From Liolophura sinensis (taxonomy: Eukaryota > Mollusca > Polyplacophora > Chitonida > Chitonidae), in assembly GCF_032854445.1 (NCBI RefSeq), contig NC_088295.1, forward strand, positions 27,081,385-27,145,384: DNA of 64,000 nucleotides, given 5' to 3'. Both the position numbers and the translations under genes were made by a program. This document shows positions 221 through 55,848 of the stretch, one piece after another; position 1 is the first letter of the stretch; each line of letters begins with the position of its first letter. The notes under the pieces were generated by a model that saw nothing but the letters and a program-made list of their open reading frames with translations, ran no database searches and had not been told where the DNA came from.

Positions 221-3200
221 AATCCCCCCAATATTGTGAAGCTGGTAATGGAGTCAGTGTGTGTGATGTTGAGTGTGAAGTCAGAGAGGAAGCCAGACCC
301 TGGTGGCTCAGGGAAGATGGTGGAGGACTACTGGGGACCATCCATGAAGCTCCTCGGAGATCTAAAATTCCTGGATCGACTCAAAACCTATGACAAAGAC
401 AACATTGCTCCAGCGATTATGAAAAAAATCAGAGAAAAGTAAGGGTGTAATTTTAACATATCAACACTGGTCTGCACTCCATGTTCAGTACACTGATGAT
501 ATAGAAGTGGTTATTAGAGTAAACCCTTAACTAGTGATCCTTAACAGATACATTTGGCAATCATACTTTTACTCCCAAAACAATAAAAAGAATAACTGGC
601 TGGTGTAATTTTATACTTGTTTAGTACCATACACTATACTGGGAGTGAACTAGTTATAATTTTACTCATCTGACATTTCCATGTATGGAAACCAAGAGTA
701 TTAAACACAGTGGTGTTCCTAATCTCACTGTTATTGTATGCAGTAAGCATCTGTTTCATTTTCCAGGTATATAACAAACTCTGACTTTGACCCATCTATT
801 GTGAAGAATGCCTCTGCAGCTTGTGAGGGCATGTGTAGCTGGGTGAGGGCCATGGATGTGTATGACAGAGTGGCCAAGGTTGTCGCCCCAAAGAAACTTA
901 AGTTAGCAGAGGCGGAGTCTGAGTTGGCTATGCAAATGGAGAAACTGAATGAGAAGAGAGCTCAGTTACAGGAGGTCAGTTATTTAACATGATTTGAGCC
1001 ATGTAAGAAACTGTTACCTGCATGGTCTTCAAATATATGAGAGTCATAATTAGGCTTTTAAATAATTCGATATGCAAGCCCTAAGATTGTCTTATAATGG
1101 TAGTTTGTATATTAAATGCATATTGGTATGTAGCTATTAAAGGACTAGAATTCAGTTTTGATTGACATTTGTTTTATAGGTGACAGACAAGCTGCAGTCT
1201 CTCAATGATGAATTTGAGGCGATGACTCAAAAGAAGAAAGAGCTGGAGGATAACATAGATCTATGTCAGAAGAAATTGGAGAGAGCTGAGAAGCTGATCG
1301 GAGGTCTGGGTGGGGAGAAGGACAGGTGGACAGAGGCTGCCAAGACCTTGGGGGAGAAGTACATCAACATCATGGGGGATGTGTTACTGTCATCAGGGCT
1401 GGTGGCTTACTTGGGAGCATTCACTGTGGACTTCAGACAGGTTAGAACAACAGAAAGAAACGTTAATGTCTCTGCTTCTGGTACGCGTATAATGCATAAA
1501 TAGAAAGCCAGCTAAAACTGTCATATCTACTTTCTCAACTCCCCCCTTCCCCCACACACACACCCACACCCCTATCCCTTTTTGTTAGGAAAGCATTCAT
1601 AACAGTTGCTAGTATGTAAGGAGAATAACCTGGCTTCAACATATTTTGTGTTTATTATGATCATTATTATTATTATTATGACCAAACAGCAGTAAAATGT
1701 ATTTTAATAATTCTGTCATGAAGTTATACTTACATTTTCCAGGAAATCACCAAGGACTGGCACAACATGTGTGTGGAGAAGAAGATACCGTGTTCACCAG
1801 TGTTCTCCCTGAATGCTACACTGGGTGACCCTGTCAAGATACGAGCCTGGCAGATTGCTGGTTTACCAGTGGATGCCTTCAGTATTGATAATGGTATTGT
1901 TGTCTCCAACTCCAGACGATGGCCCCTCATGATAGATCCACAAGGTAATACACAGCACAGCCTGTTAGGAATAAAGAGAATTGTTCATGGCTATCATGAA
2001 GTCAAAATTTTTATACACATTTCTGAAAAAAACATTGTTCTGGCAATTTAGTCATTTTTAGCTGTGACTATTTAAAACTGCTCAATAAAGTTGGTCGCTT
2101 CATCAGCCAAATTTTTTAATAACCTATCTCTTAATATTAGCACTTCACTTAACAATGGATCTCAGTGCAAAACAACACAAGGATGTTGTGTGGGGGAATG
2201 TCGCAGCATTGACTTTGTAAACAATTTGCTTGAAATGATGGACAGTTAAATTCAGATGGTTTAACACGCCATATTGTCCATTCACATATGTACCTTTATT
2301 AACACATACCCCATTTAATTGAAACTTGACTGCAATCTGGTTTCTGTTTCAAGGCCAAGCCAACAAGTGGGTTAAGAATATGGAGAGAAACAATCAGCTG
2401 GGCATTATCAAGCTGTCTGATGCTAACTATGTGAGGACCCTAGAGAACTCTATCCAGTTTGGTTACCCTGTCCTTCTGGAGAATGTGGCTGAAGAATTGG
2501 ACCCACTGTTAGAGCCCATCCTACAGAAGCTCACCTTCAAACAGCAAGGGGTGGAGTACATCCGATTGGGAGACAGTGTGATAGAATACTCATCAGACTT
2601 CAGATTCTTTATTACCACTAGACTAAGGAATCCACATTACTTACCTGAGGTCTCCGTCAAGGTAGGTCCAACTACACTCTACATCATATCCCTATTAATG
2701 GACAGTGAGTGGTCAGTTTCAAAGGGCAAATTAGTTACATGAATTTCAGGTGATTTATTAAAAGATCATTCAGACGGTGGATACAAGTTTTCTTTAATAA
2801 TTCTCCTTTGTTCTTTAAAGAGTGATAGTATATTCTATATCATTCTGTTTATCACTGTTGACTCATAAATATGCTGTTTTTATTTTAGCAACATTAAATT
2901 TGATGAAATGCACAGAATAATGTTTGGGTACCTATTTGTCTGTTCAGGTGTGCCTGCTGAACTTCATGATCACCCCACAAGGTTTACAGGATCAGCTGTT
3001 AGGTATTGTGGCAGCCAAGGAGAAGCCAGAACTAGAGGAGAAAAAGAACCAGCTGATTCTGGAAGGAGCAGAAAATAAGAAGCAGTTAAAGGAAATAGAA
3101 GACAAGATCCTAGAAGTCTTGTCAAGCTCTCAGGTTTGTTATTTGCTCACTGATGAATTTTATTATAACAATTTAAATTGGGATGTATTTAATATTTTCT

Positions 3201-6200
3201 GGAAAGTGATTAGCAAGTGCATAAGCTTACCATATATCGCCTAAAATTTCAGATACAACAAAGCTATACATTTTAACGGATTCTGAGGGTTCTATTCATC
3301 TTAGAGAGGTGTTTTGAATGTTTTTTTTTTGTTTTGGTAGGTAGTACCAAAAGTAATATTGATGACCTCCATTTGATAACTCAAGTACAGTATTTAATCT
3401 GAATTTTTAGGGCAAGTACAGGATGGGTATTTTTATGCCAGCAATTGTAAGCTTCTTTTTAATGTTACACATTGCCATGGTCAGAGTTTGAAGATTGAGC
3501 AGTATAAAGTTAAACAAATCAGAAATATTCTTCCCTCTGTCATGTGTTTTTTTTTTCTAACTGGCTACACGTATCTTAAAGTTAACCATTACTGTTTACT
3601 TTAATAACCACAGGGTAACATCCTGGAAGATGAGACAGCCATCAAGGTACTGTCTTCCTCCAAGACCCTATCTGAAGAGATCTCTGCCAAACAGGAGATT
3701 GCGGCAGCCACAGAGAAAGAGATTGACGAGACAAGGAATGGTTATGAGCCTGTGGCTGTCCACTCCTCTATCTTGTTCTTCTGTATCACAGACCTGGCCA
3801 ACATTGAGCCTATGTACCAGTACTCTCTCACATGGTTCATCAACCTCTATCTGCAGGTAAGTATTAAAACAATAGAGACCTTTTCATAGTTAGAAGTTAC
3901 AATTAGTTTACCTATTCTAGTTTGAAGTTAGAAGTTACAAGTTCAACTTGTCAATGCTTTACAAAGTCAATGCTTCACTAAAGGCATCTAATAAGCTTGG
4001 ATAACAAATAATAGTATTTATCTATAATTTCAGATAACTCTGCGATGTTTTCTTAAGCAGCATCAGCTAGTATATGTCAGCATAACCCTTGGTTGTTATC
4101 TGACTTTGACCTTTGACTTCTGGCTCACTTGGCTTAAGTGTTATTCTTACCAATGTCTAGGCCTGAAGCTGATGCGTCTGTGGCTTTGTTAAGTTGAAAG
4201 GCTTGTCAAGTACATGACAAAGGATAATGATTTGTCAGGATACTGACCGGAGCAAACTAGAATGCCTGAAGTAAACCACTATCCCTTGCCGTGTATCAGA
4301 CAAAACTCCTGACCTGTCATGTAACTGAAAAATTGATGAGAAAAAGTGGATGGATTAACATTGGGTCATGACCTCAACCACACTGTGTTATACATAGATT
4401 GATTTGTCAGTGTGATAGGTCGTAATTAGATGTATTATCCCTGTTATATTTGTACAGTCCATCGTCAACAGTGTTCCATCTTCTGACCTGGAGGAAAGGA
4501 TCAGCAATCTCAATGAGCATTTTACTGACAGTATCTACAAGAATGTCTGTCGCTCATTGTTTGAGAAAGACAAGTTACTCTTCTCCTGCATTCTGTGTGT
4601 TGGAATCATGAAAGGGCAGTAAGTATTGCACCTTGCCTTTCATAGTATACTTTGATCTTTTGTACAATACTTTCATGTGTGAAAATGAACTGTCACAGAA
4701 TACCATTGGTTTAAGAAGCCAACAAATAATTAGTTATGCTCTCTTTGATAAGAGTTTGTTTAAAGAATTAAAACACCATTTTCTTAAGTTATCATCATTA
4801 TCAATGATTCAATGAGAAATTTTTTTTTCCCCTTTTTTTTTCAGAAACAAGATCGATGATGAGGTATGGAGGTTCCTGTTAACTGGGGGTGTGGCTCTGG
4901 AGAATCCTTACCCTAACCCAGCTCCAGAGTGGCTAGGAGACAAATCCTGGTCAGAAATAGTGCGAGCTTCAAACCTCAAGAATCTGAAAGGATTTAAAGA
5001 GCGTAAGTAGTCTACCCAGGGTCAGTTTCTGTATACACTTACATATATATAAAGAAAGTTTTGAAAAGAAAAGCCAAAGAACTTATTTATTTCGTTTCTT
5101 CTGCACAAAAGCTGAACATATGATGTTATTTCTGTCATAGATGTGGAAGGCTACATCCACCAGTGGAAAGAGATGTACGACTCTGGCCAGCCACAAGAAC
5201 ACAAGCTGCCTGCCCCCTTTGATTGCCTGACTGGTCTGGACAAAATGGTCATTCTGCGGTGCTTCCGTCCTGACAAGATGGTGCCCGCCGTCCAGGAATT
5301 CATCATTGACAACATTGGCCAGTCATTTATTGAACCCCCTACATTTGATCTTGCTGGGTCCTTTGCTGATTCCAACTGCTGTGCTCCACTGATCTTTGTA
5401 CTGTCACCTGGGGCTGATCCTATGGCCTCGCTGCTCAAGTTTGGAGAGGATAAAGGTTACACTGGTAACCGCATACAGACCATCTCCCTGGGCCAGGGAC
5501 AGGTAAAACAGATCAGTTTCCTTTACTGTAATTCCTCAACCTTTTCGCATGTTTGCAAGGTGTTTATTCAAGCATATTCTGAAGGCATTTTTCTCTATTG
5601 ACTGATAAAGTTATACTTTTTGTGAAATCTTGAAACTGGTCAATCCCACCAAAGTAGTTTTGTCACCAAAATCAAATTGAAAATGTGCATAAATTGGACT
5701 GAAAATGGCTCTTTCATATGCGAAAAGGTTGAGGAATTAGGGTAGCACCAAGCAGTTTCTGTTGCTTTCTTGCGGTAATAGGATAAGCAACAATATTGTT
5801 GAAATGCTCTTTTCTTCGCTGAACCATTAATCATTAAAAGAGTGTTACAAATGCTACAGGTCACAGAAGATATTTATTTAAGTTTTATAATCAAGCTATT
5901 TTTTTTTTGATCAGCCACATACTTAAAGAATGTTAATGTTTCCATCACATCATGAATTTATAACAAATATTTTGTGTCGTGTTACCACCACAAGCAGGAG
6001 TTCAAAGGAGTTGAAAGTTAATGTTTAAGTTGTGTTTAATATTCAGGGCCCTATAGCGGCTAAAATGATCGACAGTGCCCTGAAGGATGGAACATGGGTG
6101 GTCTTACAGAACTGTCACCTGGCCACAAGCTGGATGTCTAAGCTGGAGAAGATCTGTGAAGAGGTGTGTGAATCTTTCAGAATCCGCAGTAATAGTCAGA

Positions 6201-9200: not shown

Positions 9201-12160
9201 CTTCCAGCCGTGTGGGCAGCCAAGTCCTACCCATCCCTCAAACCACTCGGCAGCTACATCTCAGATCTGCTGCAAAGGTAGGCCTATACGTCCAATACAG
9301 TACAATTCTTGCAAACACTTACAAGCTACATATAAAGGTCACATGTTATGTGTATGGATTGATACATTCGCTACCCACTTGCCCATAAAGGTCACGTGTT
9401 CATATTGATATCTTCAATAACATTGGGAAAATTTTCATGGTTTTGTTATTTCCTGTTTTTATCAGGTTGAAATTTTTCTCTGACTGGATAGATGCAGGGG
9501 CCCCGCCATCATTCTGGCTGTCTGGTTTCTACTTCACCCAGTCCTTCTTAACAGGTAAGTATATGTTTGCATTTACATGAGAAGTGCCAAGCAGTATGTT
9601 CCGGTACGGAGTGTTCCATACGGAGTGGACATTGTTAACACACATGTATAATTCTGAAGCAGAGCTTGTGAACACAAAACATCAAAAATTAGTTTTCTTT
9701 TCTGATGTAATGTATACTATGCTGACCATCCATGTGAAGCCACTGCGGAAATTTGTCCAGAAATTTGCCTTATCATTTTAACACATTGACATATATTAAA
9801 TTTTAGCCGTTTTTACCCATACACCTTTCCTGAGGTTGGTGCTTTACATGTTAGCTTCGTTGCCCTGTTTATTTACTTATGACTCATGCTGGATATATAC
9901 TATATACACAGGCGTGTCTCAGAACTATGCCAGAAAGTACACCATTCCTATTGATGAGATTGGATTTGAGTTTGAGGTGATGAAGCTGGAGAAATCTGAC
10001 ATTAGCGAGAAACCAGAAGATGGAGCATTTGTCTATGTAAGTATCAGTACAAGAGAAACCACATCATTTAAACAGTCATATGATATGTTGGGTGTATTTT
10101 TTTCCCTCAGCTAAAACATCAAACAAGTGGAATGCACATTGCAAGTACTGTAGGCTTCATTTATACTGGAGATTTTTTGTCTGGCTTTATTGTAAAATAG
10201 TGTATTCATCTGAAGATTTTGATCAAATAGAAATCCGCTGATATCATACCTGGCAATATTTGGAATACTGATTTCTCAACTGCTTTATGTAAACTATCTT
10301 TAGTTTTGCCTTTGTGGCCAGACAGTTGCAAAGAACCATGCTCTATTTTTCTTTTCCATTGCACTTGTGTTTATAGAGGGTTGATTGTCATTTCAGGGTC
10401 TGTTCCTTGAAGGCGCTCGCTGGGACAAAGAGACTATGCTTATAGGAGAGTCACTACCAAAGATTCTCTTTGATCCCTTACCTATTGTATCCTTTTTATG
10501 GAAAACAGCTTCTTTGAGCCTGAACGTGTCTAGTATTAATTTTATATTCTTGCTAGCTCTAACCTGTCATTATTTATGATTGACAAAATACATTAAGGTT
10601 ATATTTATTTATTTATCTATCTGGTTGGTGTTTTACTCCCAGCTCAAGAATATTTCACTTACACGATGGCAGCCAGCATTATGGTGGGAGGAAAACACAG
10701 AGCCTGGGGGAAACCCACGACCATCCGCAGGTTATTTCCAGACCATCCCACTCACGGCCAGAAAGGAAGCCAGCATTGGCAGCCACATTAGTGGGAGGCT
10801 CCTGGGTCATTGCGCTGCGCTGGCGATGCTAATGCCCTCGGCTTTAAGGTTATAGAAGATCAGTGTACATGTACAGTATCAAAAGTACATAGACAGAGAA
10901 CAGTATGCCACACTCTGTTTATTTGATTCCCCATTAGAATGGGGGCATACCCTTATGCAGGATAATTGGTGCATTCAATCACAGAAACAGCTGATCTCAT
11001 GTTTCTATGCAAAGAAAAATGTGCCATAGTGGATTTTGGTAAAGGAATTGTGTGATGTTTGCAGTAAAATGTCTTAGATATGTGCTGGGGAAAACTGACA
11101 TAAACCTGTATTTCTATTCTAGCACATCCAAATTTATCCCAAATGTTACTGTTTTTAATTAGTTCCTTTCGAAAACAATGAAGCTTTCACCCCCACACAC
11201 ATAAGCAAACAGTAAAAGTTCAAATGTAAAAAAACTGGGGAGGCACGTTATCAATTATCGAGTATGTTTTATTGAAATATCCAAACTGAACTTTTCCTTT
11301 AAACTTGACAACACGTGTGGTTATTTTAGGATCCATTTTGACAACAGCATGTAAATTGTTTATACTTTGATTGAAACATACAACAATGATGACCCTAAAG
11401 TATCCACCATTTATTTGGAGTACAACTTTACTCGGCCATCACAGGTGTAAGTTATGGCAAGATAAAAATATCAACATGCTATATGACATCTGTCTCCTTT
11501 CTAAGTTAAAAATTAACAAATGTGTTATAATTGACAACAGTAGAAATGTTTCATAAAGCACATGTAGCACCACATGTACATGTACTACCATTTTGACACA
11601 ATAAACGTACCTACAGTGCAGATTGCAATGGAAGTTTTGTGCAAGTAACAGTACGTGCCTTTGTGATATTTGTCTCAGATCATGATTTGTAGACGATAAA
11701 TTATTTTCCCAACATCATCTTGTCTATTTTTCGTGACATCGCTCCACTGGTCAGTCATGCTGGAAGGAGCAGACATGTGAACTGTCCTTCTACATTGTGG
11801 CATACTTCTATTAATGTACTTCTGATAGTCTCCTTTTATGCTTATGGTATGATGATTTTGTTTCAGTCCAGCTAAGTTGTTGCAGATAAGTTTATCATAC
11901 GTGTCTATCAAATGTGACAGTATTGACATCAGTTCCTTGACAAGTTACCACAGATCTGGCTTAAGCCAAGCCAAGTGTCCAAGTTCAAGAAGGTGCCCGC
12001 CTATCCTACTCCAGTGTACAAGACAAGTGCCCGCAGAGGAGTGCTATCCACGACAGGCCACTCAACCAACTTTGTCCTCTTCATCCAGTTACCCACAGAC
12101 AAACCTATCAGCCACTGGATCAACCGGGGCGTGGCAGCTCTTTGTCAGCTAGATGACTAG
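221..12160 (+). CDS. Axonemal dynein heavy chain, C-terminal part (5' end outside window)
   Basis: Motor subunit of an inner-arm axonemal dynein, acting in cilia and flagella. The 22 exons are 221-438, 767-974, 1180-1440, 1743-1944, 2354-2661, 2948-3133, 3614-3856, 4458-4618, 4845-5002, 5141-5502, 6047-6163, 6411-6501, 6689-6795, 7054-7197, 7667-7830, 8262-8415, 8613-8741, 9012-9277, 9466-9554, 9912-10036, 10397-10486 and 11954-12160. They encode 1329 residues with consistent phases. In order they hold the microtubule-binding tip ([12 protein letters not shown]), the second stalk coiled coil (exons 2-3), AAA5, a further coil, AAA6 and the C-terminal domain ending [11 protein letters not shown] and CQLDD. 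The AAA1 P-loop lies upstream of the window. The C-terminus resembles the single-headed DNAH3/DNAH7/DNAH12 group; I cannot choose between them, so no symbol is given. The first acceptor (TTACAG at 215-220) is inferred. Confidence 0.95.
5529..5739. mobile_element. MITE-like element, copy A, in dynein intron 10
   Basis: The ends are near-perfect inverted repeats: TAATTCCTCAACCTTTTCGC at the left, and the same sequence in reverse complement at the right. The element is 211 bases, has no coding capacity and is bounded by TA at both ends. Its ends resemble those of the elements at 25801, 27909 and 50729, which points to one non-autonomous DNA-transposon family. Confidence 0.75.
10602..10849 (-). 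repeat. tRNA-derived SINE, family 1, in dynein intron 21
   Basis: This near full-length copy is in reverse orientation. Read on the minus strand, it starts with a degraded tRNA-like head (GCGCAGCGCAATGACCCAGG), has the conserved body ending near CTTGAGC, and ends in an AAATAAATAAATAT tail. About 100 bases beyond the tail (10499-10601) match the flank of another copy inside MRE11; see the separate finding. Confidence 0.85.
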
Positions 12161-20000: not shown

Positions 20001-21213
20001 ATGGTGTGCAGGTCTGTTGAACATGGGGAAACTTTGTCAGTAATTTAACCATAGTTTCCTACACCCATAAAACTGGCTGCTAACAAATTTATGAAGTGAC
20101 TTATTACCTTCTTTAGAAACTAAGGTGTTAAACAACAATCACGTAAATAAATACATTCAGTCTTGTAAACGTACCTGCTTTGTCAAGCAACATTTCTACT
20201 TTCTCCTGACAATATGTCTCCACTTTTTTACTGATGTCATGGTCATCTGGGTCCAGATTGGTCTCACTCAGAATCACATCCTCCATGTAGAACTGTCGCA
20301 CAGTCAACAGAGGAATCTTCTCCATTTTAAAATCTTTGCCATGAATTTTCAATATGCCAATGTGTTTCTTGACAGTCTCTCCCTCGCTGAGTGAAGTGGC
20401 GATACTACTTCCAGGCTGGGAGACGTAGAAGTTTTGAACGCCATTCCACTCAGGATCAATACGACATTCATGCTCATGACCCCAGATAATGAGATCAAGA
20501 AAGTCATCGAGGAACTGTTCTGGGATGTAATTGGTGGCAGAATGCTTTGAGCGATTTTGATGAATGACAAACATGTTAAACCAATCATCTTTGTTTTCCT
20601 TGGGGCGAAGCATTGAAATGTTTTTATGAATGAACATACGATGGAGGCGTTCGTCTCGAACAGATCCCAGACCAAACATTGCTAGCTTAGTGCTGCCTTT
20701 CTGGAACAAGATAGGACTGATTTCTATTTTTTCTAATGACGATGGCTTCCCAAAATAATTGACCAGCCCACACGAGTGAAGGAGGTCGAGAGAGCAGAGG
20801 TTACCCAGGCCTGTTGGGTCATCATGGTTACCATGTATAGAGAACACCGGCACCGACACATTAAGATTGGAGTCCTCATAATTCAGCATAGGAAAGTCAC
20901 AATGGTAAAAATCTACAGACTGATCACTGAGAACTTCAAACTGGACAGGGTTATCTCCTAGACAGTACTTCCTTAGCAACGCTATCGTCCCATTAACCGC
21001 TTTACGTGACGGCTTGTTGTCATGGTATAAGTCACCCCCTAATAAAACAAAGTCCACTTCATGTTTCACCGCAGTCTCTAGTATTTCCTCAAAAGTTTTC
21101 AAAGAATCCTTTGCTCGCTCTGGGTCTTTCTCACCATATCCAACATGACAGTCTGTGGCCACCAATATCTTGAATGTATTCTCATCATCATTCCCATCCG
21201 CTGCTCGAGGCAT
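14063..21213 (-). CDS. MRE11: MRE11 double-strand-break repair nuclease
   Basis: Manganese-dependent exonuclease and endonuclease of the nuclear MRE11-RAD50-NBS1 complex, which senses and resects DNA breaks. Coding exons on the minus strand are 21213-20175, 19353-19257, 18965-18868, 17924-17833, 17070-16960, 16433-15985 and 14237-14063. They give 686 residues, close to the roughly 700 usual for animals. Phosphodiesterase motifs are intact: D21 and H23 (ATDCHVGY), [10 protein letters not shown] near 61, GNHDDP near 128-133, VIHQN and WGHEHE. The capping domain follows ([10 protein letters not shown], then [10 protein letters not shown]). Exon 6 carries two arginine-glycine runs (a GAR motif, the known PRMT1 target type). 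The tail is Ser/Asp-rich and ends in SKRRR. The start is fixed by family alignment. A splice acceptor (TTTTTAG) lies four bases upstream of the ATG, so a 5' UTR exon exists further upstream. Confidence 0.97.
16655..16681 (+). other. G-run cluster (G-quadruplex motif) in MRE11 intron 5
   Basis: Runs of 5, 4 and 11 G separated by 3-4 bases fit the G3+ N1-7 pattern. A second purine tract (16889-16902, 7 G then 6 G split by one A) lies in the same intron. Both are on the template strand of MRE11. Confidence 0.5.
18570..18864 (-). repeat. Dispersed repeat R, copy 1, in MRE11 intron 3
   Basis: On the minus strand this begins CCGAGACCTCGGTCT and runs to CTCTTGTAAATCTTAGCC and GGCTCATATTTAAG. It aligns over its length with the plus-strand sequence at 23072-23344. 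It contains a TTCAAGTCCGA stretch like an RNA polymerase III B box and an upstream TAGCCCAAGAG like an A box, so a tRNA-derived SINE is possible. The family is not one I recognise. Confidence 0.7.
19392..19630 (+). repeat. tRNA-derived SINE, family 1, in MRE11 intron 1
   Basis: Forward copy with the head (GGGGCCTCGGTGGCTGAGG), the GTGAGTTCAAGTCC B-box region, the conserved body and ATAAGTGAAATATTCTTGAG. Instead of the usual terminal AATAAA repeat it continues into the segment shared with the dynein intron. Confidence 0.9.
19631..19800 (+). repeat. SINE-linked spacer plus second SINE tail
   Basis: 19631-19721 matches the reverse complement of 10499-10590 (for example TTTTGTCAATCATAAAT and GCTAGCAAGAATATAAAA). 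From about 19724 a second family-1 tail begins (TAATGCTGGC, then GTATAAGTGAAATATTCCTGAG) and ends in AATAAATAAATAAA. Confidence 0.75.
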
Positions 21214-23071
21214 ATTTCTAAAAAGATAAAAAAAATAAACACCAATCAGTGATCAGCAACTGCATTATTTTGATTGGCATTTCATGCTACAAAGTACTTC
21301 AGTTAATTTTGGTGGTCAGGTTTATGGGTAAAAGAAATAAAACAAGAGGGAAGTTTCGAGTTCGAACTCTTGTCCTTAAAGGTAAAGATAGTCAAAGCAT
21401 ATATTAATATTCAACTTGTCTAAAATGTTCTGGATACACAAATTCAGAAGTTCACAAACATTCAGAACCTCATTTTTTTTTCCTATGTGAAACTTTTTTA
21501 AGGCACACATGTTATAGTAAATGTAATCAAAAATAGCTGACTTACATTTTTCACAGGTCACATGGTATAGTAGGATGTTTTTTACCTACAGTTCAACAAG
21601 GGACTATCAGTAAGTAAGCCTCGGACTGCCAGATGGCACAAATCGACATTGACCTTGAGGAAAACATATACAACATGTGCCCATCTACAAAATTCTATTC
21701 AAATTCGGATTATCAACTTTAAAACCAAAGCAGGACTAAGTCATTGGAGAACTTCTACAAATGGTGAAAGTCCGCACCTCTGTGTGGTTCTCTGACGATG
21801 TACTAACATACCAAGCAGTACAGAGCCACATCTAAACCTGGAAGAAATCAGCCGGGATTAAGAAGCCTGTTCTTGCAGTCACGTGACTTGGGGATTCCCA
21901 TGAAACATCATCTGGTTTCGGGATACAAATAAGTAGGTGGCTTATGTAGTAGCTCATACATATTCAGGCAGCCCTACTACACACAAAGATAAAAACACTC
22001 AATCTCAAGTGCCAACGTGCTGGTGGATATCTCCAAAAACATAGCGTACAACTTGTAGATACGAGACGAAGCCACTCGGTTAGAACAACTGTCAGCAATA
22101 CAACTTCATAAACTCCGTCATTTTGTAAATATCTTCGTCCCTTGGTGAGTTTCATGCATGTCACCTGACATCGCAAAGGACTGCGCGGTTATGTCAAAGA
22201 GAAACAAGGCTTTTGTTCTCAGAGATGAAGACCTCCACAGTGGAAACACACTGATTTACTGTATACATTGACTGAAAATGCTCAAATAGATTTGATCTTG
22301 TTGTTCACATAGAAATGTACAAGGTCAGTCCTGTTTACATTGCATTTCCTAAGTTTTCTGCTTCCAACACTGGTGATTTCATCCGAGAGTGGGTGAAGCT
22401 GACCTGCTTGGTACATTAGTGCATTGTTAAATCGGATGTCAGCTGCACTTGTGGAGTTATGTTTTGATGTGATCTGCACGCAGATTTGGGCTTGTCAAAA
22501 CAGAAGATTTCCTTGGCTGCTTTCCTCGGCTTGAAACAGAGGCAGTTCACGCTGACAGAAGAAAGGTTGACGGCTATAACCTCGGCTATAATTTGGCTTC
22601 ACCAAATTTATGTGTTATTGGCGATATTCTGGGCGCATGATGTTGTTACATGTTGTAACATGTTGCATAACATGGCCATATGACACTGTATCAAGTCAGA
22701 GCTATAAAACACAGGATCATATTATACTGAACTAATCACATACCATGGACATAAACATATCCATCCATATCCATCCAACTTTAGATGGGAGTTGTAAAGA
22801 CTAGGGTAATGCATTCTGACATCATTTTTTTCCCACGGTCACATGCTTTTACCGACTTTTCATTGGTTAAAATTGAATGGGGAGATGTTCAATTTGCACA
22901 CAAAGTCAAACAGTGTAAATAAGACACTAGAGATGTTGTGCTGGAGCATGGTTTTTAGATGTCTTTAGGGCAGATGAACATGGTAAGAGATGAATGCGCA
23001 TGTGCGTGTGTCACATGCTTTTTGTCACATGGACTACATCTGAAAAGGGTCTCCTCCATATTTGGTTAGCC

Positions 23072-25800: not shown

Positions 25801-26144
25801 TAAACCTTCAACGTTTTCAACCACTAAGGCATTTTCTTCCGTGGAATGTTTCCATACAATTATCAAGAAAATGACACCAAAAATTATTTGTTTGTGTTGA
25901 TAAGGATGCAAACTTCATACAACTGTACAGATCTATTATTTCTCTTAATCTCATAGTTTTCTCAGAATGTTTCAAAATGTTGGTTGCATTGGTCGTTGAA
26001 AAGGTTGAAGAGTTAGAGTGGTTTCTCAAACTTCATACAACTGTACAGATCTGTTATTTTTCTTAATCTCACAGTTTTCTCAGAATGTTTCAAAATGTTG
26101 GTTGCATTGGTCGTTGAAAAGGTTGAAGAGTTAGAGTGGTTTCT
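25801..26144. mobile_element. MITE-like element, copy B, with tandem-duplicated right half
   Basis: The element runs from TAAACCTTCAACG at 25801 to GTTGAAGAGTTA at 26015. A 118-base unit (25909-26026) is then repeated almost exactly at 26027-26144, so the right inverted repeat is present twice. The internal block CTCAGAATGTTTCAAAAT is shared with copies C and D. Confidence 0.75.
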
Positions 26145-26257
26145 CTTTATGATGCATTTAGGATGTTGGTCTTTTTCTCATTATTATAGGTCAAGCATTT
26201 AACAAAAAAAGAAGAAGAAAAAGTAGTTTGAAAAGTTCCACAGATATTCTAATAAAT

Positions 26258-28727
26258 ATGGCGGGAAAAACTGACATGGAGAGGATTGGAATCTTCCAGG
26301 AGATGGGTTACGTCTCTATTGGTGACCGCTACAAAACAAAAGGAGGTAACTTCTGCATGATTTAGATGTTGTGAATATTACCTTACTTGTGTTGCACACA
26401 TTTAGTTATTTGTGTAAAAAAGTATTTATGAATGTCGTCATTGGCAAAGGCTACTAAGGTGTAAACGTGTGATTGATTCTTTTCAATATCTTCAAATCCT
26501 CTTATGCTTGTATGTATATTGTTTTCACACTGATCTGGTATTGTACTCCATCTGATGTTTAACAGAAAATCATATCATCAGCACTTAGGAGTTTATTGAT
26601 TTAATTATTTACCTGATTTGTTATTATTGCTGTGCTTTTCACTTTTATGTCAACAATCAGGCATTTAGGTGGAGGAACTGGAATGCCCAGAATAGACCAC
26701 AGACATTTGCTGGGGTTTCATTTATCTCAGTTTCTGTGTATGTGAACATTATGAAATGTAACATTACCTATATCATGGAAGCTTGTTTTCATGTGAGTGA
26801 ATGCATTTCCTGTTTTTGCAGTTCAGTTCAATACTTCAGCTGGCAAAGGAAAGCAGATGCTTCCTGGAGGATCAAAAGAAAGATCTGCTCTCCAAGCTGG
26901 TTATTTTGATAACAAATTCCAGAGAATTTTAGAGGGGGAAGCATACTCAGATCCTATCAAATTACGAAGACTGAATCGATTAAATGAGGCCAAGAAAAAC
27001 ATTGGGAAGGCATTTTTCCCCAGCAACACTGGGAAAAGACCGTAAGTTATACCACCAAAGACCAAGTCACTGTACCTACATGTATCTGAGTGTCTAACTG
27101 TTGTAGTCAGATTTTCGCATCGTTTCATATTTTTCATATAATGTACAGTAAAGTTTTAGGATTCTTGTTATTTTAAGATATGAAAGTTTACATGATTACA
27201 TTGTCTAGAATAAAGGCAGAAACAATGATCTAATCATCCAAGAAGATAGTTGAACAGTATGCTTTATTAGGTTGATAGGCTATGTTTGGAAGGCAACATA
27301 CATGTAGGTCAGTAAACAGTTTTACACACGCAAGAGAAACGGAAACTAAAGTACTGTACAATACACTTGCCTTAAATTCATTTTGCAAATAATCATTCAG
27401 ATGTGTCTGACTGAAATTTACTTGTTTCAGATTATTGACCAGGCAGATATACCAGGCTGACAGCCATCCCAATAAATGCATTTGTGTGTCACTAAAGTAA
27501 GCTGAATTCTGAAATGTTTAAATCTGATTTTCATCTGAGTCAAGTATTACTTGTTGTGTTTTAGCTCTGGTCTGGGGAATCACTACGGAACATTTGCTGG
27601 GGCAATTGGAGCATTCAGTCCCATCTCTAAAGGAAGATCACAGTCTGCAACACACAGCAGGAATTTTGTGACAAACCCAAGCAAAAAAGGCACTGGTTAT
27701 GGGTAAGAAAAAACTTTTCTGGTTAAAAGAAATTTAGCAATTCTTTGATATGGTTATGATTAATATATCCCCTGCTATTACGAATGGTATTTATTTAGTA
27801 TAAATATGTATACCAAATGGATTTATTCCATCTATACATTTGCCCTTTAATATTTGTCTTTATTACTACAATGATTTCAATGGCCCCTTCCCATAATAAC
27901 ACATACTGTAAATCTTCAACTTTTTCAACCACCAAACCACTTTATTCAGTGAAATTTGTACAGTCGTTATGAAAATTATGTTCAAATTGATTTGTTTGTG
28001 ACACAAAATATGCCAGCTTGGCAAAACTGTGCACATGATGTCTCAGAATGTTTCAAAATATTGGTTGCAGAGGTGATTGAAAAGGTTGGATTTTAATTTA
28101 ATTTATAAAGCTGTGATTATAATCCAGATTATATTATGTATTAATCGTGGTGGGGTGAAGTTTGTGCCTAACTAATTACCAAATTTTCTTTTGTTTGATG
28201 CATTTATTCTTTATGGATTATTTTCTTTTTGACTGTTTACCTACATGCATAATATATATACCTGTCTAGCTAGAAGTGATGCATGGGACTGAAAAATACA
28301 AAATCATACTCCAACATTTTCATAGAAAATTAAACATTATAGTGTCTATACTTGTTTCCAGTTACGTAAAAGTAACTTTAGGTGAATATGAGAAACACTT
28401 ACCTGACCCATTTGATACACATAAAGAGATGACAAAGGTAGGTTCTTTGGGCGATATCATGTGCTGGTAACACCTGTGTTTTGATACTCACTCACTGTGT
28501 GCACTGCTAAATCAGCTGCTGTTTTCATTTTTTTTTTTTATCTTCAAATGAGCCACATTTTTATTTTTGGTGTTATACTTTATGTTAACCAAAGCCTACT
28601 GAGCTTGTGCTCTCACTTATATCTGGCGTCCTGATTATATATGGATGTTAAGAGGTTATAAAACAATGTAAAGGCAGTCAACTCACATCTATAGGCTCAG
28701 GATACTTTTTAAAGTGGTATATATATG

Positions 28728-28792
<65 letters not shown>

Positions 28793-31700
28793 GAAGATAC
28801 AGTGGTGACTGTAGGCCTACATGAGGATACAGTGGTGACTGTGTTCATTTGTCCATTTTTGCAGTTGCCATGGTTACCACACCATTGCCATTTTCCCTGA
28901 ACCTGAACTTTGTTTATCATTTGGCAGATGACATTAAAATAAGGTTTTTTCATAATTGTATGCACACATTTGGAGAATGATGCAAGATTTCTGAAACATC
29001 AAACAGATAATAGTTCAAATTTTTAGAGCTGACAGCTTTGTTGCTTGGATTAATGTTGAGGCTTGATTTTGTTTAATTGTACCAGTTATGTGGTACCAGC
29101 ACTGTGGTTTTTGCAATAAACAGCTGAGTCTGTCAGTAAATCATTGAGGAGATAGTATACCTGCTGAATACATACAAACTCACCTAAAACTGACAGACAC
29201 AAGTGTACATCTTATTGATAATCAACTACATAATTACTTCAGTAATTGCAAGCATTAAACAGCTGGTGTTAAAATATTTTATTAATTCAGTAATTCTTGC
29301 AAAACCATTTAATGTGGGATAGCTTTGGAGTCATTGTGGTTAGAGAGGGTCCAGGGTTCTGAACTAGGTCAAACCCAAAAATCTTAACATAATATGTTGC
29401 CTTAACTTACACTAAGTATTTTGGTCAAAGAATAGCCCCATGTATGCTATGACACAGTATGTCAGGTCTTGTGCCCTTGGTGTAATGTTTTAGTGAGGCA
29501 GCGCTATGACATACAACAAAACTAGGAATTGCAAACTGAATGGAATTAGTGGCACCTTTACCATGGACTATAAGCATACTAGGGACTTCCTCTTACCTAT
29601 GCCAGGGAAGGGGCACAAGGGATAGTCAGCTTGGTGTCAGTATGTTGTGACATGAAATGTCAAATCTTGTGTCTTTGGTGTGATGTTTTAGTGAGGAAGC
29701 ACTAGAGTATACAACAGACCCAACAATCTCAGTGTTACACCTTCATATGATATGAATGATGTTGACAAGTAACTAGCAAACCTACCACCCTACCAACCTA
29801 ACCTATTTATTGTGTATTATTGTGATCTGTCACATGTGTGCAATCAGTGGTGAGCATCAGTTTATGCATAGTGTGGGTATTATGTTGTGGTTTGGTCATT
29901 TAAACTATTATCACCTATTGAAATGTGCTTTGTTTTGTGATTAACATTGTTTTTGGCTTTGCTTTTGCCGTAGTTACTTGTCAGTAACAATTGGTCCATA
30001 CTATAAACATGAGACTGATCCTTTTGACAATCCACGGCGAATCATGAAGGTGGGTTAATCTGTTTGAAATCAGTGAATCTTATTAAAATGTTCATGTTAG
30101 TTTATCTATTTGTATTCTATTGTGTGTCACAGCTTACAATATTGTGTATTTATGCAAGAATTCAATGAATATTGAACTCCAAGTTGTTGACAAGCTGGAT
30201 GTAGAGCATTCATGTTTAATCTCGAAAAAATTCCATTTCAATATTCTTGTTTACACACTTAACATTATAGTAGTTTGTCTAGATCAGAAAACTGCCATTT
30301 AGAAAAAATCACCAGTTTTTTTTTCTTTTTGGGAAATTAGTCTTGTAAAAGTTCAACTTCATATAATGACTTGGTTTTATTCTGTACTGATCAAACATGG
30401 ATATATGTCTAAATGATCATTCTTTTTGTTTCCTCTAACTGTCATTGATGGATACTGCCTTATGGAACACCTGAATTGTCATTTCATGCACATATTTGCA
30501 GAAAGAGAACGAATCCCACAAGGCAGCCTTGAAAGGCGCAGCGTTCAAACTCAACATGCATCCTAAGGCTTACTTTGATAGTAACCCTTACGCCACAGAC
30601 AAACCCCTGGGGCCCAAAAAGGAGGAGCCCAAGAGAATACCGGTGAACCCATTCAAACCTAGCTCGCCGGGCAAAAGTGTAAGTGTACAGAAAACATATC
30701 TAATTAACTCGGGGTAATGTAAGAACCACATGTTTGTTAGACACAATCTCGCTACAGTCACCTTCAGTACCATATTTCACCTAAAGTTTCGTATGTAAAA
30801 TTGCTCTTTTAGAAGCACAAAAAGATCTCAAAATGATACCTCTGAGTTTTTCTGATAAGAAATTAATCAGACTAGACAAAGAAAGCTCTTAAGGTCAATG
30901 AAATCAATCAGATTCAAGTGTATCAGTGCGAGACTTGAAATACATGTATGCTACCAAACTTCAGGTGAAATACACTAATCTGAAAGAGAAAGTCTTGAAT
31001 GTATAGTTAAATGATGTTAAGCAATAACAGGAGCAAATTTACAAGGTGCATTCTTTTAGTGATTGATGACCACTATATATCACTTTGGAATAGAACTGAA
31101 AAGGATGATAGCCAATCTGAATATTCCTGACACTGGCTGTAGATATGCTGAAATACAGGGTATGGTACATGAGGACTTCAGTATTCGGAGTCACTGTTTT
31201 GTTCCTTCTTAAAACCCAAGTTGATCATTGAACTATGAATGACTGCTCTTAAAACATCTTTTACCCCATTATGTTAGAGTTTGTGGCAGATCATAGTACA
31301 TGTATTTCTATATGTATGTCTTTTGTAACACTTATCTAGGAATATGTGTATGTGGGAAGGTCTTCCAGCAACCTGTGGATGGTCGTGGGTTTCCCCGAGC
31401 TCTGTCCGATTTCCTCCCACAATATTCCAGGCTGTCATCGTATAAGTGAAATAATATTCTTGAGTGTGGCGTAAAACCCCAATCAAATAAATAAATAAAT
31501 AAGCCTGGAAATATGTACTAATCAATGGCCATTATTTGCTTTGGTTTATTTACTGATCAACATTTACTTGCTTTCTTTTATTTTAACATTCTTATTTGAA
31601 CTATAATTCTTTTAACCACATATTTGTTACACAGCCAGCAGGAATGAAGGCAGGCACCTTTGACCCCTACCCATCCCACTCTGCTGACCCGTACAAGGTG

Positions 31701-32303
31701 CTCCGCAACACACGGGCTGTGAACATTGTCAACAAAACTGGCAAGACCTTCATGCCCACACCTGGCCCTAAATCTACACCTGTCACCTCAATAGTTAACC
31801 AGAATGTTCAAAGGTAAAGCATCCATCATGCTAGGTAGTAAATGCAGTCACATTGAATCAGCGAAATTTTGTTTTGAATACTCAGTTACCTGTTCATTTA
31901 AATGTTACCTGTGTTAAATGACTAATGTGGCCAATCACCTCATTCAGTTTCTCCTGAATGTATCTTTCTTCCATGTAGAATACACACTACATATTATTAC
32001 TGTATACTGTCCTAGTCATCTTCAGGTCAAATTTAGATACAAGATAATATGATATAATATATATATTTTAAGACCTAATTTCTGATTATGGGTGGCAATT
32101 TCAGTATTTTCCCCATTAAAAATTTCATGCTATATTGCATAAATTTGAGATTGACATGTATTTATTTTTTCATTTATAAGGTTTCCAAAGATTTAGTGCT
32201 TTCCAAATTTTGTCCATTGTTAATTATAAAAATGAATGAATTTTTTTCCAGATCCATAAACAGTCAGAACTACAGATCCTATACAACACTATCAGCATTT
32301 TAA
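26258..32303 (+). CDS. CFAP96: CFAP96 (C4orf47-like) cilia and flagella associated protein
   Basis: Homologue of vertebrate CFAP96 (formerly C4orf47), a small protein of the cilium and centrosome region; its molecular role is poorly known. Exons are 26258-26345, 26822-27041, 27565-27702, then either 28362-28437 or 29974-30049, then 30502-30678, 31635-31813 and 32252-32303. With one alternative exon the product is 309 residues, which to my recollection is about the length of the human protein. Conserved blocks visible are GKTDMERIG at the N-terminus, KQMLPGGSKE, LQAGYFD, GKAFFPSNTG, NPSKKGTGYG, GAAFKLNMHP, NPFKPSSPGK and AGTFDPYPSHSADPY. No membrane segment or coiled coil is evident. The ATG follows a 5' UTR acceptor at 26188-26189 and matches the family start. 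Probable ciliary regulation is suggested by the X-box-like site at 24652. Confidence 0.95.
27909..28095. mobile_element. MITE-like element, copy C, in CFAP96 intron 3
   Basis: 187 bases from TAAATCTTCAAC to GGTTGGATTTTA, with the shared internal block TCTCAGAATGTTTCAAAAT and GAGGTGATTGAAAAGG near the right end. Confidence 0.65.
28362..28437 (+). CDS. CFAP96: CFAP96 alternative exon 4a
   Basis: 76-base exon bounded by TTTCCAG and GTAGGT. It enters with one base completing a Gly codon and encodes YVKVTLGEYEKH, then DPFD and EMTK. It is homologous in sequence, length and phase to exon 4b at 29974-30049. Confidence 0.85.
28719..28795. repeat. (AT)n microsatellite
   Basis: Long alternating TA tract in the intron after CFAP96 exon 4a, interrupted only near its left end. 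Confidence 0.95.
29453..29725 (+). repeat. Degenerate direct repeat between CFAP96 exons 4a and 4b
   Basis: 29453-29525 and 29651-29720 share GTGTAATGTTTTAGTGAGG-type sequence followed by a GCGCTATGACATACAACA-like stretch, about 195 bases apart. The origin is not recognised. Confidence 0.6.
29974..30049 (+). CDS. CFAP96: CFAP96 alternative exon 4b
   Basis: 76-base exon bounded by GCCGTAG and GTGGGT. It encodes YLSVTIGPYYKH, then DPFD and RIMK, the same 25-residue length as exon 4a. Joining it after 4a would shift the frame and reach a stop within about a dozen codons, so only one of the pair can be used per transcript. Confidence 0.85.
31345..31502 (+). repeat. 5'-truncated SINE, family 1, in CFAP96 intron 5
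   Basis: Body and tail only: GTGGGAAGGTCTTCCAGCAA through GTCGTGGGTTTCC, CGTATAAGTGAAATA and a terminal AATAAATAAATAA run. Confidence 0.85.
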
Positions 32304-33607: not shown

Positions 33608-34427
33608 CAGAACTGAACCTACACCTGAAATGAACCTACACCATGTGTCACTATGGTGAAGTGATGTCACTATGTGTGAGGGATTGATAGGAGGAAATCC
33701 GCAAATTCTGTTGGACAACAGAAATGAACCTACACCATGTGTCACCATATGTGAAGTGATGTCACTATGTGTGGGGGATTGATAGGAGGAAATCCGCAAA
33801 TTCTGTCCTACACCAGAAATGAACCTACACCATGTGTCACTATATGTGAAGTGATGTCACTATGTGTGAGGGATTGATAGGAGGAAATCCGCAAATTCTA
33901 TCCTACACCAGAAATGAACCTACACCATGTGTCACTATATGTGAAGTGATGTCACTATGTGTGAGGGATTGATAGGAGGAAATCCGCAAATTCTGTCCTA
34001 CACCAGAAATGAACCTACACCATGTGTCACCATATGTGAAGTGATGTCACTATGTGTGGGGGATTGATAGGAGGAAATCCGCAAATTCTGTCCTACACCA
34101 GAAATGAACCTACACCATGTGTCACTTTATGTGAAGTGATGTCACTATGTGTGAGGGATTGATAGGAGGAAATCCGCAAATTCTGTCCTACACCAGAAAT
34201 GAACCTACACCATGTGTCACCATATGTGAAGTGACGTCGCTATGTGTGAGGGATTGATAAGAGGAAATCCGCAAATTCTGTCCTACACCAGAAATGAACC
34301 TACACCATGTATCACTATATGTGAAGTGATGTCACTATGTGTGGGGGATTGATAGGAGGAAATCCGCAAATTCTGTCCTACACCAGAAATAAACCTACAA
34401 CTTGTGTCACAATGTCTGGGGGATTGA
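33608..34427 (+). repeat. 95-bp minisatellite, about 8.5 copies
   Basis: Units begin AAATGAACCTACACCATGTG at 33628, 33722, 33817, 33912, 34007, 34102, 34197 and 34292, with partial units at both ends. The period is 95 bases (94 once). Units are nearly identical, differing at a few positions. There are no unrelated spacers, so it is a tandem repeat, not a CRISPR array. Confidence 0.97.
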
Positions 34428-43700: not shown

Positions 43701-46700
43701 AAATCTTTTTTCAAGCAAATCATCAATTTATGTATCTGAGAACAAAATAACAGCTTTAGTATGACATGCTAAGCTACATGGCAGCCATTACGCTTTCAAG
43801 GCACATCATTACCCTAACCATTGAGTACTATGGTTTGTATAGCAGGTTTGTGGGTTGATTAGCTGGTGAAGCATTCAAGCAACTTATAGTTTGTTTACTG
43901 CTCACATTTCATATGAAAACACAATTTCTCTTTCTTATATAACCATGTTCCTCTCTCAAGCAAATTATCCATAAAACTTACATGATCAATGCACCTACTA
44001 CCATGTTTACTGTAACATGTTAAGCTTCATAATCATTCAGTTTTCCAGGCACATCAATACATCAATACTAACCTGAGCCAGCATGTTGCAGCACTGCTGA
44101 AGTAGGGAGACTGGGGGATTCCCCACACTGGTGGCCAGCTGTACCCTCAACAGCTGTTCCTTCTGAGTGGGGTTTTCCAGGATGGCATGAAGCAAGGCCA
44201 CAGCAGCAAACCAGTTAGACAAGGAGTCTGCACTGAACAGCCCTCCACATAACAACTGACCTGCTGTTATTGTGTTCACTGAGCAAAAGAGGGAGTAAAG
44301 CAGCATGTAGAAAAACTGTCTAAATATATCTTCACTCCCATCCTTTTGATTTTATTTATTTATTTGATTGGTGTTTTACGCTGTACTCAACAATATTTCA
44401 CTTATATGACGGCAGGCAGCATTATGGTGGAGGGAAACTGGGGGGGAAACCCACGACCATCCGCAGGTATATTATTTATATTAAATATTTCATTTATGCG
44501 ACAGCTGCCACAATTATGATGGGAGGGAAATGGCCAGAGCCAGGGGAAAACCCACAACCATCCTTAGGTTACTCCTGAGGCTCCTGGGCTAACCACTTCA
44601 GCCTCGAAAACCCCCTAATGCAATATCATGCAATAAGCAATGATTCAAGGAGACAACCTTAAAAACGGTAAGTGAACTAGAAGGAAACAACAGAATATTC
44701 TCCAGTCAAGCCTGCCAGTACTCAGAACGTACCATCTGCTGAGCTGGGGAGAAGAGTCTGAACTATCTGAGACTGGCCCACTTCATTCTTATAGAGGAAG
44801 GACTGGAAACAGTAGAGCACTGCACATCGCAGAACAAATGGCTGCTTCTCATTCACCATGGACATCAACAACACAACAATGGCAGGCCTGTTAAATACAA
44901 AAGTCACACTTCAGAGACAACTCAATCATTACAGTAGTTTGTCAATGTTCTCTTTGTTAAACGGCAGTCACTCATCTGAGACAACGCTACATTTACTGTC
45001 ATTCTTCAATCTTCTAGTTTGCTCACCCCTCCTTGATAATAACATCTTCCATGTTTCATTACTCATTACAACATATTGTTCATTACAATGCTTTTGCACA
45101 AGTGTCCTCCCAACTTGTGTTGTTGTTGTTGCATATGTGTGTACATAGTTTCAAAGACTTCAAGGAGAAGTCCTCCAAAAATCGAACGGGGCCTCCGTGG
45201 CTCAGTCGGTTAGCGCGCTAGCGCAGCGTAGTGACCCAGAAGCCTCTCACCAATGCGGTCGCTGTGAGTTCAAGACCAGCTCATGCTGGCTTCCTCTCCG
45301 GCCGTACGTGGGAAGGTCTGCCAGCAACCTGCAGATGGTCGTGGGTTTCCGCCGGGCTCTGCCCGGTTTCCACCCACCATAATGCTGGCCGCCGTCGTAT
45401 AAGTGAAATATTCTTGAGTACGGCGTAAAACACCAATCAAAAAAAAAAAAAAAAAATCCAAAAATCGAAGTAGGCATCACTAAATAGACCACTTAAAAAC
45501 TATGTATAAATATACTTTCATTTATTTTTTTAGATTTTTTTGTGTGAAAAGAGTTAAAGACATCCAAACATTTGAATTCTACGGTAGGCTTTACAGTCCA
45601 TACTATCAGAGTTTAGGAACTCTGACATCACAGGAAGTTTTTCCAACTCTATATCCCGACCGAAATGTTGGAATAACTCTTTTTACCCATGAGTAAAAGA
45701 TAACTGAAGTAATGTTCCCAAAAATTCCTTCTTTCTGGTGAACATCAGGAAAAAAAACATCAGGGTTCCTAGATATCACCAGTATGGCTCATAAAGCCTA
45801 CCATAGTATTCAAATATTTGAATACCTTTCAACACTCTTAAGAAAAATCTGAAAAAAAAAATTAAAGTATTTTTACGCATAGTTTTCAGTTGTCTGTATG
45901 GTGAACCTTAGTTTACATTTAAGCTTTCTTTTACTTTCAGCGTAGAAAACTTCCAGATGTATCTTTTTGAACTGTTGAGCAAGGTACTTGTCTTAAATTA
46001 GCATCCAGTTCTGACAATACCTAATAAATATTCATATAATCAAAATGTGACAGGCTATTATGAGCCAAGGACTCTTGTACAAAACATCTTACTCATAATG
46101 CGGCCCAAAGACTTGTACCAACAAGAGCCTTGTAACAAAGGAAAGGTGTACAAACAATCTGTAAAATTGTGTACGGACAGTTTTTCTTCAGTTGCCACAT
46201 GCTTAACAAGAGAAAAGCCTCACCTTGGTGGACTGGATGGAGCCATGACTGAAGCAAAGTACTCCTGATTGGATAAATTTCCCCGAATGACTTCTGACAC
46301 AGTGTTGATGGTCTGAAAGAGGAAGAAACAACCTTAGTTCATAAACTATTTTACTTACGAAAGTCAGGTTTAAACCACCAACCTTCGGCAAGTGCCTGAC
46401 AAAATTCTTGACTTACAAGCTGCTGATGTAACATTGTGAGCTGGATCTGATCATACTACCTCAATGTTCAAGGGCCTGATAATAGCAGCGAGATAGTGCT
46501 TTACAATCTGAGCCATCCATGTCCCTCAGTTAACTTGTGTTAAAACCATAATAAACATACATACGTATAGATCTAACACTGGCAATGGATTTAATGTACC
46601 GATTTCTATATCGTACAAGTATGAGGGTGCACAAAACTAAATATCAGGAAGTGTGTTTGATCAAAGATTTGTCAAACTATTACCTCAGTCAAGACATCTG

Positions 46701-55375: not shown

Positions 55376-55648
55376 GAGGCCTCTGTGGCTCAGTTGGTTA
55401 GCGCGCTAGCGCAGCGTAATGACCCAGGAGTCTCTCACCAATGCGGTCGCTGTGAGTTCAAGTCAAGCTCATGCTGGCTTTCTCTCCGGCCGTATGTGGG
55501 AAGGTCTGGCACTACCTGCGGATGGTCGTGAGTTTCCCCCGAATTATGCCCGGTTTCCACCCACCATAATGGTGGCCGCCGTCGTGAAAATATTCTTGAA
55601 CTATTCTTGAGTACGGCGTAAAACACCAATCAAAAAAAAATAATAAAA
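55376..55648 (+). repeat. Young SINE, family 1, upstream of the elongase
   Basis: Full-length copy flanked by a perfect 15-base target-site duplication (AAATCAAAAGTAGAA at 55361-55375 and 55649-55663). The head carries GTGGCTCAGTTGGTTAGCGC and GTGAGTTCAAGTC. A small internal duplication near the tail repeats TATTCTTGA. Confidence 0.96.
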
Positions 55649-55848
55649 AAATCAAAAGTAGAAAAAGTGTTAAAGATACTGAAAACCATACATAGAGGCA
55701 GGGAGAAATGAACTTTTGGATGACATGGATGCAGTGTAAAATTTAGTTCATCGTGTTTTGCTCTAAAAAGGTATAAAACAACTTTATGATGTATTAAATT
55801 TTTAAATATCCTGATTTGCTGTTTTTTTCTTGATTTTAATAGGGCACA

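Follow-up and report, generated by a model that had tools for sequence, protein, structure and literature searches.

A candidate pair of frame-enforced, mutually exclusive exons in the CFAP96 gene of the chiton Liolophura sinensis

Mutually exclusive exons that break the reading frame when used wrongly are a known and common design. Exons 9 and 10 of PKM form a frame-incompatible pair of this type, and in FGFR2 the adjacent, homologous internal exons IIIb and IIIc lead to an early stop when they are included jointly. FGFR2 is cited for the decay of its double-inclusion forms in the available text of PMC6071210. A putative pair of the same kind was analysed in a 64,000-nucleotide stretch of the genome of the chiton Liolophura sinensis (contig NC_088295.1, forward strand, positions 27,081,385 to 27,145,384; hereafter, the window, whose positions are counted from its first letter), where the gene CFAP96 contains two candidate versions of its fourth exon, referred to as 4a (28362..28437, plus strand) and 4b (29974..30049, plus strand). 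The chiton pair resembles that of FGFR2 both in the arrangement of the exons and in the early stop that follows their joint inclusion; it differs from FGFR2 and PKM in that the gene codes for a ciliary protein and in that the pair is known here from genome sequence. A further term of comparison is represented by the Dscam-type docking/selector clusters, in which tandem homologous exons are used singly; in contrast to them, the chiton gene has two exons, their length is not a multiple of three, and a simple scan disclosed no intron pairing clearly beyond that of shuffled sequences.

The first-pass annotation had described two homologous 76-base exons, and their coordinates proved to be exact, as did the equality of length and phase. 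Both were delimited by gene reconstruction and comparisons, and each has a genome match; 4a codes for YVKVTLGEYEKHLPDPFDTHKEMTK and 4b for YLSVTIGPYYKHETDPFDNPRRIMK, the two agreeing in 12 of their 25 residues and in 43 of their 76 bases, so that 13 residues and 33 bases differ. The changes K to S, E to P, and HKE to PRR between 4a and 4b, already pointed out, were found again, together with a further change of E to Y. The idea that the two segments are charge variants stands, the net count of K and R minus D and E being -1 in 4a and +1 in 4b, with the reservation that the size of the shift is modest.

Both exons also fit their neighbours in frame, as had been claimed. Exon 3 (27565..27702, plus strand), obtained by reconstruction and genome matches like exon 5 (30502..30678, plus strand), breaks off after the second base of a codon, and the missing third base is supplied by the first one of 4a or 4b alike; both of them finish with AAG in phase 0, and exon 5, which takes 4a or 4b, resumes in phase 0. 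Since exon 3 ends mid-codon and exon 5 starts in phase 0, an insert of 1 modulo 3 is needed between them; thus, a single 76-base exon restores the frame, while two or none fail. The breakage of the frame anticipated for joint inclusion and joint skipping is indeed found: with 4a and 4b together a stop is met at codon 185, 399 bases before the last junction, and with both of them skipped at codon 159, 325 bases before it. According to the usual rule, stops placed this far ahead of the last junction make transcripts eligible for nonsense-mediated decay, and the double-inclusion and double-skip transcripts would therefore be eligible.

The 4a and 4b isoforms are each 309 residues long and open throughout. 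They match the profile PF15239 (CFAP96-like) with 358.5 and 356.9 bits, respectively, against a cut-off of 27, and in either isoform the match spans residues 5-291 of 309 and profile positions 1-295 of 296; this nearly full-length match upholds the gene name CFAP96, other names of which are C4orf47 and UPF0602. GT-AG boundaries are present at every intron of the gene, including those around 4a and 4b, and the introns measure 659 bases between exon 3 and 4a, 1536 bases between 4a and 4b (28438..29973, plus strand, with a TA run at 28718-28789 located by the repeat scan), and 452 bases between 4b and exon 5.

The explanation that best accounts for this locus, to which we assign a probability of about 0.82, is a mutually exclusive, frame-enforced exon pair with both copies kept as coding exons. 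We infer the splicing-in of both exons, the decay of the remaining transcripts, and a choice by splicing proteins rather than by paired intron RNA. Exon 4 of CFAP96 would have been duplicated in tandem long ago and both copies retained as code; the spliceosome would place either 4a or 4b between exons 3 and 5, and the two resulting proteins, of 309 residues each, would differ at 13 positions, all within a single segment of 25 residues. Any transcript that includes both copies or lacks both would meet an early stop and undergo nonsense-mediated decay, so that exclusivity would be enforced at the protein level by the reading frame, with splicing proteins making the choice between 4a and 4b. A likely use of such a pair would be to supply different ciliated cells with their own version of a protein of the doublet microtubules.

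Directly visible in the sequence, beside the gene, the two exons, their phase, and the stops, is a strong signal of coding constraint. Between 4a and 4b, 12.5 of 15.2 synonymous sites and 20.5 of 59.8 replacement sites differ, corresponding to a saturated pS of 0.82 versus a pN of 0.34 (Fisher p 0.0016 on rounded counts), and the differences at the three codon positions amount to 9, 8, and 16 of 25. The BLOSUM62 score of 4a versus 4b is 68. On the two strands of the 64 kb there are 442 AG-76-GT stretches, 115 of which are open in the right phase, and the best of the other 113 open exon-like frames scores 3 versus either exon. An ungapped six-frame scan disregarding splice sites gave, as the best other 25-residue stretch, one with a score of 29 lying within CFAP96 exon 6. 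A third copy of the exon in the window was also considered, and it was rejected on the score of 3 of the best other exon-like frame.

These data have to be set against an unlikely alternative, namely that one exon alone is spliced in and that the other is the relic of an old duplication, since a relic accounts poorly for synonymous change that is saturated and protein change that is restrained. The point was explored with three outgroup segments, from the cow and pig chains and from chain 8snb, which we take to be that of a sea urchin, and with a drift model in which all substitutions had the same rate and the number of changes was preset; the figures of this model are to be taken as guides, but the gap that they show is wide. 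When 4a was given 33 random substitutions 20,000 times over, at least 12 residues survived in a fraction of 0.0006 of the versions, and no version reached a score of 68. On average over the three outgroup segments, 4a fits with a score of 39.3 and 4b with one of 39.7. Simulated drift destroys this fit, which argues against a relic: after 33 random substitutions, none of the 5608 open versions derived from 4a reaches the fit of 4b, and none of the 6331 derived from 4b reaches that of 4a, a stop having appeared in 72% and 68% of the simulated exons, respectively. Even with 16 substitutions, stops arise in 58% (from 4a) and 53% (from 4b) of the cases, and the partner's fit is reached by 44 of 8446 and 44 of 9320 open versions. 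In the same way, all eight control proteins in which the 4a segment had been drifted by 33 substitutions match PF15239 with 323.0-337.3 bits, at least 19 bits below either isoform. A donor and an acceptor have also been retained at both exons, contrary to what a relic would lead one to expect; the donors match the consensus at 7 of 9 (4a) and 6 of 9 (4b) positions, the gene's other five donors having 6 or 7, and both acceptors contain 12 pyrimidines out of 17, the other four ranging from 10 to 13 and the first exon contributing no acceptor. Since synonymous change is saturated, no rival among the other 113 exon-like frames comes close, and the drift controls lose more than 19 bits, both exons have probably been retained as working code.

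Some points weigh against this explanation. The equal mean fit hides a split among the outgroups: the scores of 4a and 4b are 42 and 28 versus the 8snb segment, 40 and 44 versus cow, and 36 and 47 versus pig, so that 4b is the poorer of the two versus 8snb, and cow and pig, being nearly identical, count twice. Of the eight residues on which all three outgroups agree, six are retained in 4a and five in 4b. The poorer fit of 4b to the urchin segment counts in favour of a relic, and this uneven fit lowers our confidence in a working pair and raises that in the relic. The 4b donor GTGGGT is one consensus position short of that of 4a. The evidence for the pair is genomic and comes from one species, and its comparison involves that species and three of the six related PDB sequences. 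Cryptic splice sites within 40 bases of the four exon ends allow 180 in-frame double-inclusion combinations, eight of which are open, as in the case of the 4a donor +4 joined to the 4b acceptor +11. Lastly, a human survey left many of its predicted extra exons unconfirmed, its counts at the single-read level being 1,741 candidates with 1,090 newly predicted exons among them (PMC5740500), and this also lends some weight to the relic.

As for the choice between the two exons, the donors of exon 3 (GTAAGAAA), 4a (GTAGGTTC), and 4b (GTGGGTTA) read GTAAGA, GTAGGT, and GTGGGT, and none of the three is a U12-type donor beside a U2-type one, judging from the general U12 consensus; an incompatibility between U2 and U12 sites is therefore unlikely. 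Branch points generally lie near the acceptor, and steric hindrance is made unlikely by the 1536 bases of the intron between 4a and 4b. This length is to be compared with the distance of less than 50 bases from donor to branch point that the available text of the human survey gives for steric hindrance (PMC5740500).

A different way of picking the exon, through competing docking/selector pairing of intron RNA, is described as the major mechanism in the available text of PMC6071210. It would be compatible with an exclusive, frame-enforced pair except for the guess concerning splicing proteins, and at this locus we consider it rather improbable. In the case of intron 3 and the middle intron, the best helix comprises 16 pairs, counting G-U, and would suit such a mechanism; it is equalled in 5 of 60 shuffles, and the best helices of the other two intron pairs are equalled in 59 and 49 of 60, in a scan of one species that was ungapped, without bulges, and made after removal of the TA run from the middle intron. 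As no clear docking/selector signal emerged, a choice by splicing proteins combined with the frame is favoured. Eight short motifs of splicing factors were searched for in the four 300-base flanks, and nothing striking was found; one TGCATG is located at 28280, upstream of 4a, and has little weight alone.

It might also be supposed that the two exons are joinable, either with the frame kept by way of cryptic sites or with the frame lost, the latter serving as a regulated off-switch that lowers CFAP96 through decay. The eight open cryptic combinations mentioned above would permit the former, and the position of the stops of double inclusion and skipping, more than 300 bases before the last junction, would suit the latter; an off-switch alone leaves unexplained the CFAP96 sequence pattern retained in both exons, and joint use appears very unlikely. 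According to the available text of the human survey, exons whose length is not divisible by three occur in 377 of 629 clusters, joining reads were present in 83 of the 377, and exon-joining reads were accepted where the join shifts the frame (PMC5740500). It follows that 4a-4b junction reads, which had been proposed as a refutation of the design, would be insufficient alone. The mutually exclusive exons of Caenorhabditis elegans are reported, in the available text of PMC13247117, as 100% triplet on the basis of the length difference between the alternatives, and by this measure the chiton pair is triplet too, its difference being zero. As a published base rate in favour of an exclusive pair, the features of 4a and 4b recur in 90 of the 16180 exons that are annotated as not exclusive in X-linked genes of the fly (PMC3228551).

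An artefact of assembly or chance, with unrelated or misjoined copies, has nothing in its favour and is practically negligible, given that 33 of 76 bases differ, that the surroundings are dissimilar (the best DNA match between the 300 bases around 4a and those around 4b has an E of 0.19), that the score of 68 compares with a next best of 3, and that 201 bases around 4a match only themselves in the genome. In the nearest 20 to 60 bases, the flanks of the two exons are identical at 30-35% upstream and 32-45% downstream. An assembly duplication was hence rejected on the differing bases and the dissimilar surroundings.

The genome that was searched (609,464,459 bases in 632 contigs) is a published one, first assigned to Liolophura japonica and later renamed as that of Liolophura sinensis (PMC12441733). 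When it was searched three times for CFAP96, the 7, 7, and 5 matches obtained fell without exception inside this gene, which speaks for a single CFAP96 gene in the genome as far as such matches tell. Such searches readily miss a single short exon, 4a and 4b having both gone undetected in the family search and each isoform search having found its own exon 4 only, so that a stray exon copy elsewhere would escape notice. A retrocopy revealing a spliced form was rejected, no match being present outside the gene in these same searches, which are weak for short exons.

As to the age of the pair, six distinct related sequences are available in the PDB; the 8snb, cow, and pig chains were aligned, and the sequences of 9e78 and 9e2g (three, E 2e-12 to 2e-4) were left out as distant. 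The identity to the chiton CFAP96 is 60% for 8snb and 55% for cow and pig, and the segment corresponding to exon 4 is ungapped and of the same length in all three, the chiton being distinct in encoding two versions of it. The phmmer scores of the 4a and 4b isoforms are, respectively, 377.3 and 370.9 bits with 8snb, 335 and 340.2 with pig, and 334.2 and 336.1 with cow. The saturation of the synonymous sites indicates that the duplication is old. Of the 25 residues, five that 4a and 4b have in common are lacking in all three outgroups, and the similarity between the two exons (12 of 25 residues) exceeds that of either of them to an outgroup (5 to 9 of 25), which suggests that the tandem duplication postdates the split from the deuterostomes, a lead derived from 25 residues and three outgroups rather than a dated event.

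That no such pair had been reported in CFAP96 agrees with the literature consulted: the titles and abstracts among the matches listed contain none, subscription papers and supplements being outside this scope, and searches on mutually exclusive exons combined with molluscs or motile cilia, like others of broader scope, gave no CFAP96 case among the matches listed. As far as these listings show, CFAP96 would be a new case of a common design. Pattern scans of genome-contig and viral-contig collections, which are without other animal genomes, returned 114 and 72 matches, none of which is a relative. Further chiton genomes have been published, among them those of Acanthopleura granulata and Hanleya hanleyi, and five are mentioned in the abstract of PMC12005716.

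The remaining part of the gene, likewise on the plus strand and derived from the reconstruction and from genome matches, consists of coding exon 1 (26258..26345, from the start codon), exon 2 (26822..27041), exon 6 (31635..31813), and a final coding stretch including the stop codon (32252..32303), whose genome match is weak (E 0.11 and 0.12) and whose encoded C-terminus can be aligned with chain 8snb_1A. Some 110 bases ahead of the start codon, a 118-base unit is present in two copies with 97% matches (25909-26145), and a stretch similar to it was noticed by eye in intron 3, near 28040-28090. A putative family of dispersed short repeats, also recognized by eye, is located at 10580-10855 and 44283-44578 on the plus strand and at 31274-31531, 45247-45492, and 55512-55742 on the minus strand, with one copy sitting in CFAP96 intron 5. 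Downstream of the gene, at 33618-34410, there is a 95-base tandem repeat of 8.4 copies with 94% matches. Upstream of CFAP96, the window contains a dynein heavy chain gene (2323-5598, plus strand), recognized from two open frames that match the AAA_9 motor region at 2323-2739 and the D6 P-loop at 5116-5598, and, on the minus strand, an MRE11-like gene (20128-21252) with a 374-residue open frame bearing metallophosphatase and Mre11 DNA-binding domains. Other neighbours with Pfam matches are a Uso1/p115-like vesicle tether (44040-44351, minus strand), an ELO fatty-acid elongase (56376-56984, plus strand), and a rhodopsin-type receptor in two pieces (61220-63085, plus strand). Outside the window, contig 8 of the same genome carries eight hemocyanin-unit matches in one cluster (37880506-37891931), clustered hemocyanin units being typical of molluscs.

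CFAP96 has been modelled in the doublet microtubules of bovine sperm (8otz and 9fqr), bovine oviduct (9cpb), and porcine brain ventricle (9cpc), the tissues being those given in the available text of PMC11779644. The cattle models of sperm (8otz and 9fqr) and oviduct (9cpb) carry one identical CFAP96 sequence. Structure models usually carry reference sequences, so that a single cattle sequence is no test of isoforms; as they stand, the cattle models give no support to a split by cilium type in mammals. The same available text describes alternative versions of one axonemal part according to the ciliated cell, such as CIMIP2A/CIMIP2B, RSPH4A/RSPH6A, and others, with few sperm-specific paralogue replacements known and the reason for them unclear (PMC11779644). 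In the mammalian axoneme the replacement chooses between genes; in the chiton it would choose between exons, with a putative split by cell type. The gill cilia of the ascidian Ciona differ from its sperm flagella in tubulin isoforms and in the use of tektins (PMC4427456), and by analogy the chiton could diversify its axonemes likewise, by splicing. In the same genome, PF10629 (CMI2B-like) gave three matches in three distant places, and PF14825 (CFAP77) gave three matches in one place with six profile positions in common; neither revealed a tandem exon pair, in a sample of just these two families and with searches that can miss short exons.

Most axoneme parts are common to the cilia and the sperm tails of an animal, and yet the two structures are not alike. 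It is possible, though tentative, that chitons, and perhaps more molluscs, make two CFAP96 versions for their doublet microtubules by splicing, chosen according to the ciliated cell type, e.g., gill versus sperm. A swap of 25 residues is a very small and testable change, in one gene and between otherwise identical proteins, and five tissue RNA libraries of this genome project, from digestive gland, foot, gill, gonad, and heart (SAMN35319765 to SAMN35319769), are public. If it is true that the two exons divide by tissue, axoneme parts would be tunable by splicing; if there is no division by tissue, the locus would still illustrate neatly how a structural gene can preserve an ancient pair of exons.

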